64,000 nt of DNA from contig CAIIXF020000009.1 of assembly GCA_903813345.2 (NCBI GenBank), positions 13,900,347 to 13,964,346 on the forward strand. The letters run 5' to 3'. Of this stretch, positions 7,581-27,400 are shown piece after piece. Below the pieces are notes generated by a model, which was given only the letters and a program-made list of their open reading frames with translations, was not told the DNA's origin and searched no databases. This DNA is from Owenia fusiformis (taxonomy: Eukaryota; Annelida; Polychaeta; Sabellida; Oweniidae). The position numbers were made by a program, and so were the translations under genes. The number at the start of each line of letters is the position of its first letter. Positions within the stretch are counted from its first letter, which is position 1.

Positions 7581-10500
7581 ATGTTTATCTTAACAGAGAT
7601 GAAAGACACTGTAACAATTCCCCCAAGACTCTTCTATCTCAACTTTAAAGAAGCTGTTATCGAAACTCTCAACAAGAAGCTTGCAAATAAGGTATACTGT
7701 AGCTAACACTTATTTTATTTACTAGTTTATTTATTTACTATGTTTGATGGAGAGCTTCCACTTAACAATACACTTTGTTTGAAATGGAATGTCAATATGT
7801 ATCTCACAATCTCATATAATGTTGGTGTATTCTTATATGTTGCAGGTTGTACATTTTGTTGATGTATGTATTTCATATGTTGCAGGTTGTACATGCTGTT
7901 GGTGTATGCCTTGTATGTTGCAGGTTATACATTAATGTTGGTGTATGTGTCTCAAATGTTGCAGGTTGTACATAATGTTGGTGTATGTATTTCATATGTT
8001 GCAGGTTGTACATGCTGTTGGTGTATGCCTCGTATGTTGCAGGTTGTACATAATGTTGGTGTATATATCTCATATGTTGGAGGTTGTACATAATGTTGGT
8101 GTATGTCTCGTATGTTGCAGGTTGTACATAATGTTGGTGTATATATCTCGTATGTTGCAGGTTGTACATATTGTTGATGTATGTATCTCATATGTAGGAG
8201 GTTGTACATAATGTTGGTAATGTCTCGTATGTTGCAGGTTGTACATATTGTTGATGTATGTATCTCATATGTTGCAGGTTGTACATAATGTTGGTGTATG
8301 TATATCATACATTGCAGGTTGTACATAATGTTGGTGTATGTATTTCGTATGTTGCAGGTTGCACATAATGTTGGTGTATGTATTTCATATGTTGCAGGTT
8401 ATACATGATGTTGGTGTATGTATTTCATATGTTGCAGGTTATACATAATGTTGGTGTATGTATCTCATATGTTGCAGGTTGTACATAATGTTGGTGTATG
8501 TATTTCATATGTTGCAGGTTATACATAATGTTGGTGTATGTGTCTCAAATGTTGCAGCTTGTACATTATGTTGGTGTATGTATTTCATATGTTGCAGGTT
8601 ATACATGATGTTGGTGTATGTGTCTCAAATGTTGCAGGTTGTACATAATGTTGGTGTATGTATTTCATATGTTGCAGGTTATACATAATGTTGGTGTATG
8701 TATCTCATATGTTGCAGGTTGTACATAATGTTGGTGTATGTATTTCGTATGTTGCAGGTTGCACATAATGTTGGTGTATGTGTCTCAAATGTTGCAGGTT
8801 GTACATAATGTTGGTGTATGTATTTCGTATGTTGCAGGTTATACATGATGTTGGTATATGTGTCTCAAATGTTGTAGGTTGTACATAATGTTGGTGTATG
8901 TATTTCATATGTTGCAGGTTATACATAATGTTGGTAATGTCTCTTATGTTGCAGGTTTTACATATTGTTGATTTATGTATCTCATATGTTGCAGGTTGTA
9001 CATAATGTTGGTGTGTGTATTTCACTTTGGGATATGACAAAGTATGAAGATTCCTATCTGCTTCCTGGTGATGGGGCCTCACACACAATAGGTATCTATG
9101 AAAACACCACAAATGATTAAAATGCATCATAGTCTTCTGTGCCTTCATTTAGGTATTATTGTTCATTTGAGGAGAAATTGTGGCTCCTAAACAGTAGAAT
9201 CGATTTTTCACTTTATTGAGGTTTTTTACCAATAACCACACAGAGTTATTGTCATCAAACTGAATGTGAGAGAGTGTGTTTCAACCCATTATGAAAGTAT
9301 ATTGATGCAGTAAACACCTTTCAGAGCACATCAGTTTCATTGAATATCAATATAGAGTTACATTTTACATAGATGCAGTTTGTACCTGTTTTTAAAGGTT
9401 ATTAAAATAGTTATGTATTTCTGTTTAACTCCAGTTCATTTCCGCTATGTGGTGTTCAGGCCATTCTTAGATGAAGTCCTTCTTGGTAAAATCAAAAGCT
9501 GCAGTAAGGAGGGTGTTTATGGTAAGTTTTAACTCACTTAAATTGAAATTCGCTGGTGCATGATCTTAAGTAAAAATTCATCTTAAAGAGGAACTCTCTG
9601 TATTATTTCAACTAAACTCATCAAAAGTGTAGATACATGTTAAAGTTGTGCAAACTTATGATAATTAGTAAGCGGATGCACTACAATAGATACATATACA
9701 GTACTGGTCTCATATCAGAATATATAATTCATTTTGCTCAGAAATACCAGTATTGATGTACCGGTGACACTAAAATAATAATATTCATTGCTTCCAATTA
9801 GGTGCAAGGATCCCAGGCCCGTAAGACACTTTTCTCCAAGGGGGGTGCGGTTTTTAGCTAACTAAAGAGAATTTAAAATCGTCAATTTTTTGCCGCGTAA
9901 ATCAAATTGCGTAAGACAGAGGGGGGGGGGGGGTCAGTTACTCCCTATATTGGTTTGGAATTAACAAATGCAACTTCCAAACGTTCAGATTGTTTTGTGG
10001 GGGGTGTGAGGAGTGGTCCACTCCCCCTAGAAAATTTTACAGTTTTGAGATGCTATTTTGGTGATTTCTGGGCACTTTCAAAGTGTAAGTTTCTAAGTAG
10101 TACGCCACCACCACGGGAATAAGAGTTGAGTAAATAAGAAACCGAGCATTCAGGGGGGTCTGGGGGTTCTCCCCCAGGAAAATTTTGAAGTTTGGTTGTA
10201 TTTGGTGCGAATTTGCAACCATCTGCTACGCCTGTGCGTTATGAGTCAATAAGAAAAATGTGAATTTTTTTCAAATTCTTTTGGGGGTGTCAAAGAGGAT
10301 GAGAGGGTGAAGTGGGGTGGGGTGCCAGTAGGGGAGCAAGGGGTTGTCACCCAGAAACATTGACCATATCAAGGTGCTATTTGATGATGTCTGGGCACTT
10401 AAAAAATGTCTGAGACAATACATGAAATTCAGAATATTTTCTTTTGTTTTGTGGGGGATGTGAGGGGTGGCTAACTCTCCTAGAAAATTTTACAATTTAA

Positions 10501-13500
10501 AGATGATATTTGGTGCTTCTGGGCACTTTTAAAGTGTATTAGTCAATAAAAACATTGAAAAACAATCACAATTTTTTTCAAATTTTGGGGGTGGGGTGCC
10601 AGAGGGGGAGGTGGGGCTGGAGTGCCAGAGGGGGAGCAAGTGTTTATCCCCCATTACAATATCAAGGTGCTATTCGATGAAGTTTGGGCACTTTAAAAGT
10701 GTCTGTGTCTAAAAGTGCCTATTTCCCAAGAAAATTTTACAATTTTAAGATGCTATTTGGTGCTTTCTGGGCACTTTCAAAGGGTATGAGTCAATAAAAA
10801 ATTTGGAAAATCTCAGGGGGGGTCTGCCAGAGGGGGAGGTGGAGTGGGGATCGCCAGAGGGCGAGTAAGTGTTAGTCTTCCAGAATCATTAACTTTATCA
10901 AGGAGCTATTTGATGATGTCTGGGCAATTTAAAAGTGTCTGAGACAATACATTAAACAAATTCAGAACTTTTCCATTGTTTTGTTTGGTGTGTGAGGGGT
11001 GGCCCACTCCCCCTAGAAAATTTTACAATTTTACGACGCTATTTGGTGCTTTCTTTTTTGGGGGGGGGTCAAGGAGGGGGGCGCCAGAGGGGGGGGGGGG
11101 GTATGCAAGTGCAAGATGCAAGAGGGGGAGCAAGTCCCCCAGAAACACTAACTATATCAAGGAGCTATTTGATGATGCACTTTAAAAGTGTCTGAGACAA
11201 AACACTAAAATAAATTTAGCACTTTTCCATTGTTTTGTGGGGGGTGTGAGGGGTGGCCAATACCTCTAGAAAATTTTACAATTTGAAGATGCTATTTGGT
11301 GCTCTCTGGGTATTTTCAAAGTGTATGAGTCAATCAAAAAAAATTACAAAAAAAATATTTTTCAAAAAAACATTTTTTTCAAATTTTTTTTTTCAAATTT
11401 ATTTTGGGGGGTTACAAAGGGGGGTGCGGTCGCACCCATCGCACCCCCCCATCTGACGGCCCTGGATCCCTTAATTTCTGTTTGAAAAAATGGAAAAACA
11501 AGGTGAAAGATCATTTTCAGTTCAGTGTATTTCTAGGTATTACTTCACATTTTCTAAAATATAGTATGTTATGATGTACACATGTAGTTATGTATAAGAT
11601 GTTAGGGTTCCTCATATCTTGTATATATCATATTCATTATTGTAAGGTAAATATCATGATCTGAAAATTGTGGTATCGCTAAAACATGTTAATGTACTAA
11701 TTGAAATGTTTACTACATTATATACTTGCAGTCTCTCTTGGATTCTTTGATGACATTCTCATCCCAGCAGATGCACTACAACATCCATCTAAGTTGTATC
11801 CTTTCTACTCAATACATGAGTTATAAAAGTTGTAATACAATTTAGTGTACTATGTTTACGTTAATGTATTTTAAAGAAGCCAAGAAAATACACAATGAAT
11901 TAATTAATTTTTCCAACTAAAATTATGATAATAAAATCATGATATATGATAATAGAAACATGATGATATATTATGATATAAACATGATGATATTTGATAA
12001 TAGAAACATGATGATATATTATGATGTAAACATGATGATATTTGATAATAGAAACATGATGATATTTGATAATAGAAACATGATGATATATGATGACAGC
12101 AACATGATGATAGAAATGATGATTAGGTTGATGTTAGAAGTCTGATGTTGTTATACTTAACTGAGTCAGTGATGACAGTGAGCAGTTATGGGCCTGGGAG
12201 TATGCCACAGATGATGGCAGTCATGACCTGTATATGGACATAGGGGAACAGATAAGGTATTACTTTATATGGACATAGGGGAACAGATAAGGTATTACTA
12301 TATGGACATAGGGGGAACAGATAAGGTATTACTATATATGGACATAGGGGAACAGATAAGGTATTACTATATATGGACATAGGGGGAACAGATAAGGTAT
12401 TACTATATATGGACATAGGGGAACAGATAAGGTGTTACTATATATGGACATAGGGGAACAGATAAGGTATTACTTTATATGGACACAGGGGAACAGGTAA
12501 GGTATTACTAATATGGACATAGGGGAACAGATAAGGTGTTACTATATATGGACATAGGGGAACAGATAAGGTATTACTATATATGGACATAGGGGGAACA
12601 GATAAGGTATTATTTTATATGGACATAGGGGAACAGATAAGGTATTACTTTATATGGACATAGGGGAACAGATAAGGTATTACTTTATATGGACACAGGG
12701 GAACAGGTAAGGTATTACTATATATGGACATAGGGGAACAGATAAGGTGTTACTATATATGGACATAGGGGAACAGATAAGGTATTACTTTATATGGACA
12801 TAGGGGAACAGATAAGGTGTTACTATATATGGACATAGGGGAACAGATAAGGTATTACTATATATGGACATAGGGGAACAGATAAGGTATTTCTTTATGT
12901 GGACATAGGGGAACAGATAAGGTGTTACTATATGGACATAGGGGAACAGATAAGGTATTACTTTATATGGACATAGGGGAACAGATAAGGTATTACTTTA
13001 TATGGACATAGGGGAACAGATAAGGTGTTACTATATATGGACATAGGGGAACAGATAAGGTATTACTATATATGGACATAGGGGAACAGATAAGGTATTA
13101 CTTTATGTGGACATAGGGGAACAGATAAGGTGTTACTATATATGGACATAGGGGAACAGATAAGGTATTACTATATATGGACATAGGGGAACAGATAAGG
13201 TATAAGTTGCACCAGTTTGATAAAGCATACTGAGCTTGATGTCATGTTTTGAATAATGTGATTTAAGTAATTAAACACAGGTTTTTGACATGTAAAGAAA
13301 ACAAGTAAAGTAGATCCTTACATGAATGAGTTTGCAAATGAATCAAGTACAGACTTTTTCACTTCATGTACTACAATGACAATATTATTAACCACTGTCA
13401 TTGATATAGTCCGATTTATTTTGAGTGGTGATATGACATTTTTGAAATGTATAAAGTATGATGTTCAGATTCATTGTCCATTCATTTCTGGACCAGTATT

Positions 13501-14580
13501 TGATCCGAAACATTTGGTCTATTACTGTCTAGACCAGGACTGTAGATAATTGTTGGTTATTCTTACGTGTGGTGTGGAGAATTGAAAATTATGGAAGATG
13601 GTGAATGATTGATAAGCATTAGATCTTAGAAAGATGGCAGTGATGATCTATCCTAAAATTGACAGACCACTACAACCATTTTTCTTGAAGTAATTTACAG
13701 TCCCAGGCTATACACTATTTTTTTGATACAGTAAAACCTGTGTACAGTGAACACTTGTGAAACCACAAAAATGTGTTCACTGTAGGTAGATGTTCACTAC
13801 AGAGGGCCAATGTTAAACAGAAGTCTGTGAAGTGCTAAAAAGGGGTGTTCACTAAACACATGTGTTCACTATAGAGAGGTGTTCACTAAAACAGGTTTCA
13901 TTGTATTATGTATAATCTAAAACATATTGGATGTTTTTAATTGTAATTTTTTGTGGATGACAGATGCGTTATGATGTAAATGCCAAATGAACAACTATCC
14001 ATTACCTTCTTCTTGTCTTTCTTGCATGCTAAGTTTGAATAATTATAGTATGCAATAAAATCCGAGTTATAAATTTCTTTGGTTCCAATAAATGTCAGCT
14101 GTTTTTAAGAAAGATATTATTGATTAAAGAGTGCTTTGAGTTTTATGAAGGTATGATTTTTGTAAAGAAAAAATATGTTCTTATGGAAGACATTCACTGT
14201 AGCTTCATATCATCATATTTACTTCAGGTTCAGAGTTGTGGATGAAACATTTATTGATACATCCCCAAGTGGCCCTGATTCAAGCTCTATAGATGTCACT
14301 GAACAAACAGACGAGACAAAAAAGAACCCATATACCCTATTGGTAAGTCATTCCTTACCCATCATACAGTGCAACTTGAAACATGTTCCTTGAGTTAATA
14401 ATATGTGCGCAATTATAAACCTGGAGGGCAATATGTCTTTTCATTCTCAGCATGGATCAAAGATATTGATAAAAATGACTAAGTTGTTACTATGTGATAA
14501 GGCATGTTTGATGCTATATTTTGCAGGGCTCAATCAATGAACCAGGATTAGGCCTTTTAACATGGTGGAACAATACTTAG
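7581..14580 (+). CDS. POLR3H: RNA polymerase III subunit RPC8 (complete, 7 exons)
   Basis: RPC8 is the Pol III homologue of Rpb7. It pairs with the RPC9 (CRCP) subunit in the stalk that supports initiation on tRNA, 5S and U6 genes. The exons are 7581-7691, 8995-9091, 9435-9521, 11732-11795, 12170-12256, 14228-14342 and 14527-14580. They total 615 nt, giving 204 aa, the length of the vertebrate protein. All introns are GT-AG. The start [15 protein letters not shown] matches the family's first residues. The SHS2/Rpb7-N part includes LNKKLANK, then [20 protein letters not shown] and LPGDGAS. The C-terminal OB-like part has [51 protein letters not shown] and the ending [11 protein letters not shown] before TAG. 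Introns 1 and 5 contain minisatellites that copy the adjacent exon edges; intron 3 holds a G-rich transposon-like element; intron 5 also holds a small MITE. Identity is very secure. Confidence 0.96.
7816..8994 (+). repeat. 40-bp minisatellite made of the POLR3H intron 1 acceptor plus exon 2 start
   Basis: About 30 tandem units of 40 bp end exactly at the exon 2 acceptor (AG at 8993-8994). Each unit consists of an intronic end, TATGTTGCAG, followed by exon-like sequence starting GTTGTACATAATGTTGG and running to ATTTCA. That matches the first 30 coding bases of exon 2 (8995-9024) apart from a single difference in the consensus. Most units keep the splice-acceptor CAG; two read GGAG and one GTAG. 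Unit variants (GTTATACATGATG, TGTCTCAAAT) recur in blocks, suggesting higher-order duplication. Reading through the array opens several frames of 75-147 codons that are artefacts. Confidence 0.95.
9814..11464. mobile_element. G-rich transposon-like element in POLR3H intron 3
   Basis: The ends look like inverted repeats: CAGGCCCGTAAGA on the left and TCTGACGGCCCTG on the right. The short flank GATCC is present on both sides. The CAGG-type ends recall hAT elements, but an 8-bp duplication is not evident. The interior is built from four or five degenerate units spaced about 250-450 bp apart (near 9994, 10442, 10720, 10972, 11227). They share GGGGTGTGAGGGGTGGCC, TAGAAAATTTTACAATTT and GCTATTTGGTGCTTTCTGGG. 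Long G runs (9919-9933, 11089-11101) could form G-quadruplexes. No transposase is seen. Confidence 0.55.
11938..12122 (+). repeat. Short AT-rich tandem repeat in POLR3H intron 4
   Basis: Degenerate units of the form ATGATGATATTTGATAATAG alternate with ATGATGATATATTATGATGT over about 185 bp. The array ends roughly 50 bp before the exon 5 acceptor at 12169. A 68-codon open frame through it is an artefact. Confidence 0.75.
12231..13203 (+). repeat. 35-bp minisatellite made of the POLR3H exon 5 end plus intron 5 donor
   Basis: I counted 28 copies of GGACATA or GGACACA at 33-36 bp spacing. The first copy is the real end of exon 5 (TATATGGACATAGGGG, then AACAGATAAG to 12256) and its donor GTATTACT. 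Every later copy repeats about 26 bases of coding sequence, for the peptide YMDIGEQIR, plus about 9 bases of intron starting with the donor GTATTA or GTGTTA. Two copies read ACAGGTAAGGTATT, which adds a second possible donor. The array stops at 13203, where GTATAAGTTG leads into unique intron. Confidence 0.96.
13729..13903. mobile_element. Small Tc1/mariner-type MITE in POLR3H intron 5
   Basis: The element begins CAGTAAAACCTGTGTACAGT and ends ACTAAAACAGGTTTCATTG, an imperfect inverted pair, with TA on each side (13727-13728 and 13904-13905). The interior repeats GTGTTCACT several times. Its length of 175 bp and TA flanks fit a non-autonomous Tc1/mariner-like element. Confidence 0.7.
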
Positions 14581-24400: not shown

Positions 24401-27400
24401 ATCATGATTTTCACTTAGTTGTATGGCATCTTTATTGATTGTTCCCCTTGCTTTAAATGAAGAAGCTAACGTACCTCATTCATCAACCATGTTCAACTCA
24501 TTTATTCATGTGGTGCCATTTTTGAAATTGCATTTTGATTTATGCTTAAACCTGAGATGTTTTAATTATATGTTGCGATTTGATATCATTTCATGTTTAA
24601 CAAACGTTTTGAATAGAAAACAGAGTGATGTCACATGTATTATTAAGATGAAACAGGGTGATATCACATGTATTATTAAGATGAAACAGAGTGATATCAC
24701 ATGTATTATTAAGATGAAACAGGGTGATATCACATGTATTATTAAGATGAAACAGAGTGATATCACATGTATTATTAAGATGAAACAGGGTGATATCACA
24801 TGTATTATTAAGATGAAACAGGGTGATATCACATGTATTATTAAGATGAAACAGGGTGATATCACATGTATTATTAAGATGAAACAGAGTGATATCACAT
24901 GTATTATTAAAATGAAACAGGGTGATATCACATGTATTATTAAGATGAAACAGGGTGATATCACATGTATTATTAAGATGAAACAGGGTGATATCACATG
25001 TATTATTAAGATGAAACAGGGTGATATCACATGTATTATTAAGATGAAACAGGGTGATGTCACATGTATTATTAAGATGAAACAGGGTGATATCACATGT
25101 ATTATTAAGATGAAACAGGGTGATATCACATGTATTATTAAGATGAAACAGGGTGATATCATATGTATTATTAAGATGAAACAGAGTGATATCACATGTA
25201 TTATTAAGATGAAACAGGGTGATATCACATGTATTATTAAGATGAAACAAGGTGATATCACATGTATTATTAAGATGAAACAGGGTGATATCACATGTAT
25301 TATTAAGATGAAACAGGGTGATATCACATGTATTATTAAGATGAAACAGGGTGATATCACATGTATTATTAAGATGAAACAGAGTGATATCACATGTATT
25401 ATTAAGATGAAACAGGGTGATATCATTGTATTATTAAGATGAAACAAGGTGATATCACATGTATTATTAAGATGAAACAGGGTGATATCACATGTATTAT
25501 TAAGATGAAACAGGGTGATATCACATGTATTATTAAGATGAAACAGAGTGATATCACATGTATTATTAAGATGAAACAGGGTGATGTCACATGTATTATT
25601 AAGATGAAACAGGGTGATATCACATGTATTATTAAGATGAAACAAGGTGATATCACATGTATTATTAAGATGAAACAGGGTGATATCACATGTATTATTA
25701 AGATGAAACAGGGCGTTATCACATCTATTATTAAGATGAAACAGGGTGATATCACATGTATTATTAAGATGAAACAGGGTGATATCACATGTATTATTAA
25801 GATGAAACAGGATGATATCACATGTATTATTAAAATGAAACAGGATGATATCACATACAGGGTGGTCCAAAAAAAGTGAACCCCTGCAACTGGCCATATT
25901 TCCCTTATTAATTTCAGGAATTCTTTTTTATTTTCACATGTTGTAGAGGAAGGTCTAAAATTTATGTTGGTACCATACATTTTTCTTAGTCTTGAAATTT
26001 GCAGAAATTATAAGCCCTAACCAAACATTACTGAAAATGGACAAATTGTGATTTTCAATATCCGCGATTCTTCAACCCTTTAACACCTTTCTCTTGAGAA
26101 TTTTTTAAGCTGCAGTCTTAAAGAAGTAATATTTACTGACTTTGTTCAATTTTAAATCCTGCACATTATGGCTTAACATTAGCATCTTACCTTTGTTAGT
26201 TGCAAAGTTATTGTGATCCAAAGAAATGTGCTTAGCTTCCACAGACGAAAACATTTTCCAGTGAAATCATGAACATACCCCTATATGATCTTGAAATGTC
26301 AATATCTTCATAAATCATGGACCAATTCTAATGATATATGGCTCAAAACATTGAATATTGGATTTTCTTTTGATTTTTAAAGATATTTGATGAAGGGGTT
26401 ATCAGATTCCTGGTCACAGGGGGCAACTTCCTTCCATAAGAGGCCCCCCTTTAACTGTTGGTGTACCTGAACTGTTGAACAGTTAAAAATGCTTCAAAAT
26501 GATCAATGAAAGTGTGAAATGTGTTTTCTGCTTGAATAGTGTCCCTTTTGTCATATGGTAGGGTTGTAAACTTGTATCTCTAACTAAAAGCTGTTTAAGA
26601 TCATCCAATGTGTTTCAACAATTTCCGTGAATCACATTTTGTAAAATTTTGTACAATATCTTATTTCCAGGCATGTTTGTTAAACGCTTGTAATTTCTTC
26701 AAAATTTAAGACTGAGAATAAATTATGGCATCAACCAAAATTTTAGACCTTTCTCTACAACATGTGATAATATGAGCCTATTCATGCAAGTATTAAGGAA
26801 AATATAGCATGTTGCAGGGGTTCACTTTTTTTGGACCACCCTGTATAATGAAGATAAAGCAGGGTGATAATCCATACGTTATTACGGGGTGGTCAAAAAA
26901 TGGAAACCCTGATATTTGGCACATTTGTGCATCATTCAATTTGCTACCAGCCTACCATATTTCATGACCATCAGATTGATTGTCACAATGTTACAGCGCT
27001 TTAAACAACACATGCTGTAACATTGAGACTATCAGTCTGATGATCATGAAATATGGTAGGATGGTATGAAACCGAATGATGTACAAATGTGTCAAATATC
27101 AGAGAGTAGTTTCTTAAAATTAAAAATATATGAGGAAAATTCAGGGTTTCCGTTTTTTTGACCACCCTGCAAAATAAAACAGGATGGTGTCACATATATA
27201 ACAGACTTGCCAACCTAAAATGAAAAATTTACGGGAGATTTAAAAAAAATTGCGGTACTTTTACGGGAGTTTTTTTCAAAATCCGGTAGTTTTTGCGGGA
27301 GTTTTTTGAAAAAAAGCGTGAGTTTTACGGGAGGTTTTTGAAAAAACTGGAGTTTTTGCGGTAAATTTTGAAAAAAAAACGGGAGTTTTTACGGGAGATT

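Follow-up and report, generated by a model that had tools for sequence, protein, structure and literature searches.

The window, by which the whole analysed stretch of 64,000 nucleotides is meant, carries a gene for POLR3H/RPC8, and two of its coding exons have one edge within a minisatellite (Table 1). The joined product of the seven coding exons matches the solved RPC8 structure PDB 7a6h_G, which we take to be the human one, over residues 1-203 (E 3e-93), the exon 5/6 joint included, and the locus is present once in the assembly. According to the coordinates, the first coding-region intron, which holds the array at exon 2, measures 1303 bp, and the intron 5′ of coding exon 6, which ends at 14227, measures 1971 bp.

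Other repeats were observed in the window. A 24/48-bp array at 11922-12112 ends short of exon 5 by about 60 bp, so that arrays flank this exon on both sides. By eye, the intron sequence at 9920-11430 contains diverged, G-rich dispersed repeats that are several hundred bases long. At 24618-25856, 37.6 copies of a 33-bp unit, 96% alike, lie in tandem and, the unit being a multiple of three, leave several reading frames of both strands open.

Table 1. Coordinates of POLR3H features in the window
Feature	Position	Strand	Details
POLR3H/RPC8 coding region	7581..14580	+	Seven coding exons, 204 aa
Acceptor minisatellite (mirage type) at coding exon 2	7816..9024	+	40-bp unit; 30 acceptors, 7846-8995
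POLR3H coding exon 2	8995..9091	+	97 nt; acceptor at 8995
POLR3H coding exon 5	12170..12256	+	87 nt; final 26 nt form array unit 1
Donor minisatellite (mirage type)	12231..13203	+	TRF: 35-bp unit, 27.9 copies; 28 in-register donors
Donor presumably used, AAG/GTATTA	12257..12262	+	First of 28; from coding continuity
Cryptic strong donor CAG/GTAAGG, unit 8	12494..12502	+	8/9 consensus bases; U1 duplex -11.5 kcal/mol
Cryptic strong donor CAG/GTAAGG, unit 14	12704..12712	+	8/9 consensus bases; U1 duplex -11.5 kcal/mol
Final donor, with the presumed original start of the intron, GTATAAGTTGCACCAG	13200..13215	+	Putative ancestry

Anatomy of the donor and acceptor arrays

The original prediction described the end of exon 5 and its donor as being repeated 28 times at about 35 bp. 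A motif scan recovered 28 in-register donors, whose first intronic bases run from 12257 to 13200 at a spacing of 33-36 (exactly 35 in 22 of the 27 gaps), and TRF gave a period of 35 with 94% matches and a score of 1709, far above chance. The span had been placed at 12170-13203, of which 12170 is the start of the exon; the array itself starts at 12231. Unit 1 is the end of the real exon 5 and the remaining 27 units are intronic which, together with the RPC8 match across the exon 5/6 joint, agrees with the view that the first copy is the true exon end. The donor hexamer is GTATTA in 19 units, GTGTTA in 7, and GTATTT and GTATAA in one each. The CAG/GTAAGG donors at 12497 and 12707 lie 5 bases upstream of the donor of their own unit, in a variant common to units 8 and 14.

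Among the 27 intervals between units, 11 types can be told apart, of unequal lengths and with recurring neighbour patterns. The units carry AG and AG/GT signals and, as read by eye, their exon-derived part appears less variable than the intron-derived part. The final unit leads into GTATAAGT, which looks like the original start of the intron, and its continuation GTATAAGTTGCACC is probably that start. Neither the exon folded together with the first units nor a set of four later ones gave a strong RNA structure (z -0.79 and -1.56).

The array had been called the second minisatellite of its gene, and a further one is indeed present at coding exon 2, where a series of acceptors spaced at 37-41 bp ends with that of the exon itself, which is the coding-compatible one. 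The needed copies are located at opposite ends of the two arrays, the first donor at exon 5 and the last acceptor at exon 2, and each adjoins the body of its exon.

Reading frame and splice-site choice

The reading frame that continues past donor 1 meets a TAG in unit 2. Each of donors 2-28, if used instead of donor 1, leads to a product of 155 residues rather than 204 (27/27), and the products for donors 2-4, 27 and 28 end in IRYYFIWT. This is what had been foreseen, namely that a single retained unit runs into TAG and that downstream donors truncate RPC8. The cryptic donors at 12497 and 12707 would be expected to truncate the protein as well, because both lie beyond the TAG of unit 2. At exon 2, the use of any earlier acceptor also leads to a truncated product, of 40-105 residues (29/29).

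Scoring of U1 complementarity, which had been proposed beforehand, was performed with what we take to be the U1 5′ end sequence. Donor 12257, the use of which is suggested by coding continuity, forms a duplex of -5.7 kcal/mol, equalled by 20 of the 27 in-register decoys, the other 7 being weaker, and the two off-register CAG/GTAAGG sites are about 6 kcal/mol stronger. Hence, site strength cannot explain the choice of donor. Moreover, in none of six donor arrays, those of POLR3H and of the genomic stretches L055, L060 (two), L046 and L042, does the true donor alone have the greatest strength; provided that the coding reading is correct, the choice must therefore be made by position. Because the two cryptic donors are stronger and should compete, leakage to truncated RNA through them is quite possible.

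A rule by which the first transcribed site wins fits the donor array but fails for the acceptor array, where the last copy is needed, whereas exon definition fits both. The exon-proximal copy, that is the first donor or the last acceptor, would be used since the exons would be defined across their own 87 and 97 nt. In mammals, the available text of PMC9225289 reports that the donor closest across the exon is preferred when flanking introns are long and sites nearly equal, which is a preference only; the upstream donor wins 60% of near-equal events overall, and the stronger donor dominates in 86% of events. Both POLR3H arrays sit in long introns (1971 and 1303 bp) and the reported exon-proximal preference therefore supports exon definition. 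It had also been argued that selection or exon definition must hold splicing to the first donor. The requirement itself follows from the frame and exon definition is a reasonable means of satisfying it; however, the structure has an amphioxus precedent and is not special to POLR3H.

Exon-edge arrays in other genes

The recurrence of such arrays was assessed in 45 stretches of the genome (169,945 bases) containing 154 exon matches of kinesin and TCP1 genes obtained by family searches. Arrays were defined by a period of at least 15 and a score of at least 80, and edges are the ends of profile matches rather than annotated splice sites. The two family searches listed 60 and 144 matches, of which 50 and 104 entered the count; the remainder comprised TCP1/Cpn60 matches on contigs C222, C3, C8, C7 and C11 (C11:135225-135701 lies inside the fetched stretch L060), kinesin exons beyond the fetched stretches and all repeat copies but one in L018. 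A myosin sample contributed 60 of 92 matches (61 typed, one unplaced), that is 120 edges.

In the kinesin and TCP1 genes, 17 of 43 arrays cross a match edge and touch 18 of 308 edges. Two of these 18 are not real exon edges but the ends of a decoy copy in L018, although the L018 array still spans a real acceptor. In the myosin genes, 2 of 11 arrays cross one of the 120 edges, one of them (L065) marginally, with about 4 exonic bases before the donor. The splice site is repeated 2-20 times in the clear cases. The L018 array, in the kinesin gene at G000:C2:23266345-23269188, repeats an acceptor with about 114 nt of exon in 18 copies at 159 bp over 2.8 kb. A PVAL-stop ends each of the first two copies that were read, and the last copy continues as coding exon. 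Exon-edge arrays thus recur in this genome, for which the three gene families sampled provide good evidence.

Whether such arrays are over-represented depends on the null. When whole arrays were shifted around their own locus, no excess was found over the 308 edges in any of three settings (18 vs 21.8 ± 4.5, 19 vs 23.4 ± 4.5 and 15 vs 20.4 ± 4.1). In a second null, picked after this result had been seen, only the founding unit of each array is placed, on the reasoning that an array grows by gaining copies next to existing ones. Under this null, the 17 of 43 arrays in the kinesin and TCP1 genes compare with 3.9-5.8 expected, and the 19 of 54 in all three families with 4.5-8.3 expected (P 1e-9 to 8.6e-6); the myosin replicate alone is not significant (2 of 11 vs 0.68 expected, P 0.13). 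The spans judged clearly to duplicate a splice site number 12 of 43, or 13 of 54 with the myosins (P 8.6e-5 to 0.029 by null; 1.3e-4 to 0.029 for the 13 of 54 alone), the ambiguous L057 (two arrays), L047, L039 and one L046 acceptor being excluded. In the three families sampled, this amounts to moderate evidence for over-representation.

Among the myosin matches, twelve hit one and the same part of the head (approximately positions 18-84), 0.3-2 kb apart over 8 kb at G000:C9:37986009-37994334, which looks like a large alternative-exon cluster in a muscle-type myosin gene.

Origin of the arrays and relation to known mirages

We put at roughly 0.78 the probability that the donor array is a tolerated expansion of the mirage type, of which the exon-proximal copy is spliced by exon definition and the others leave with the intron, and which serves no needed function. 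The unit patterns suggest that a one-time short tandem duplication spanned the end of exon 5 and its donor, and that slippage or unequal exchange then enlarged the array inside the intron. The latter step is supported by the 11 unit types among 27 intervals and their recurring neighbour patterns. The pentamer GTATA, seen by eye 27 bases upstream within the exon as well, could possibly have seeded the first duplication, a weak idea because the unit has about 8 further bases. The other copies would be spliced out with the intron and the array thereby tolerated, so that it is most likely tolerated rather than useful. The seemingly lower variability of the exon-derived part of the units would count against this.

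A more far-reaching proposal, which we regard as doubtful, is that minisatellites are preferentially born or kept at exon edges. Perhaps 1 in 20-30 splice sites of conserved genes would then carry a ladder of decoys, and correct mRNA would need exon definition to override decoys of equal or greater strength. The excess of exon-edge arrays under one null hints against purely random placement. Under this proposal, array growth may be self-protecting: with the 29 extra units removed, the first coding intron would shrink to about 154 bp, a length at which pairing across the intron would favour the wrong acceptor; at 1303 bp, exon-centred pairing favours the right one.

It is improbable that the arrays are regulatory poison elements, in which decoy donors would set the dosage of RPC8 by capturing U1 or by yielding truncated RNA sensitive to NMD. 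Such a role would suit the equally early stop behind all 27 alternative in-register donors, the two decoys much stronger than the true donor and the truncating nature of both POLR3H arrays; however, the like arrays at exon edges of the sampled kinesin, TCP1 and myosin genes speak for a general mutational process. An intron-gain stage, in which units would be recruited as new exons or introns as proposed for amphioxus globins, is very improbable: the AG and AG/GT signals of the units and a published model (PMC3087553, available text) would allow it, but a single retained unit shifts the frame to a stop and an intron already exists at that place. Finally, although long near-identical arrays are difficult to assemble and amphioxus BflGb6 seems to be misassembled in the draft genome (PMC3087553), the unequal lengths and 11 distinct types of the intervals, a first unit that joins the exon, a last unit that differs and similar arrays on several other contigs make an assembly or collapse artefact very unlikely, even if the exact copy number may be wrong.

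The POLR3H ladders, with up to 30 near-identical splice sites on the donor and acceptor sides of one gene, allow the effects of splice-site strength, transcription order and exon definition to be told apart in a natural experiment. Should arrays at exon edges prove common in the genome, annotation errors and unstable intron length would result from them and, possibly, new introns outside amphioxus.

Mirages of the amphioxus Adh gene were reportedly described by Canestro et al. in 2002. In the available text of PMC3087553, mirages are minisatellites over exon-intron boundaries in amphioxus genes, with units of 10-160 bp, at which RT-PCR suggested regular splicing; similar duplications are reported in lancelet PGBD5 (PMC3902484), and both sources describe the mRNA as undisturbed. 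So far, mirages are on record from cephalochordates, which concerns distribution and not definition. The POLR3H arrays cross an exon-intron boundary and repeat its splice site, at a 5′ boundary in exon 5 and a 3′ boundary in exon 2, with units of 35 and 40 bp. By their structure, in the features tested, they are mirages, a kind already known from amphioxus. As in Adh3, globin and PGBD5, their tandem units combine exon sequence with a splice site on the donor or acceptor side. Unlike the amphioxus globin BflGb6, with its 3-6 units, they contain 28 and 30 copies and, unlike amphioxus mirages, they occur as two arrays in one gene of a genome that is probably not amphioxus. In family searches of this genome, 34 innexin matches and three erythrocruorin-linker matches, the latter weak though over the cut-off, point to an annelid-like protostome and not to amphioxus, which had been considered first. 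The GFP family gave no match, which is weak evidence against amphioxus because no control genome gave one either. A search for COX1 likewise found nothing.

For Adh3, a mirage gene in amphioxus, comparison of coordinates revealed no array at matched exon edges in the present genome (0/14). Between Adh3 exon matches, the same 92-bp array and its neighbours were observed twice, about 5 kb apart (L015 3851-4087 and L016 2823-3059), which is probably a tandem duplication of several kb.

Beyond amphioxus, the internal tandem repeats of human segmental duplications (PMC2812944, available text) resemble the POLR3H arrays in a unit length of about 30 bp, in lying at exon-intron boundaries in some cases and in changing introns; however, they average about 4 copies, lie in primate-specific duplicated genes and give alternative transcripts in most intron cases. 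The intron gain reported for potato RdRp (PMC4974935) and the Rogers model cited in PMC3087553 likewise involve a tandem duplication that includes splice signals but, unlike these, the POLR3H arrays lengthened an existing intron, and no new one is seen. Among annelids, the intron repeats of earthworm metallothionein are not described as crossing splice sites in the available text of PMC12783039, and no report of annelid splice-site minisatellites was recognised among the titles and abstracts of a partial literature coverage. What is likely new here is the occurrence of such arrays outside amphioxus and their recurrence across the genes of an annelid-like genome.
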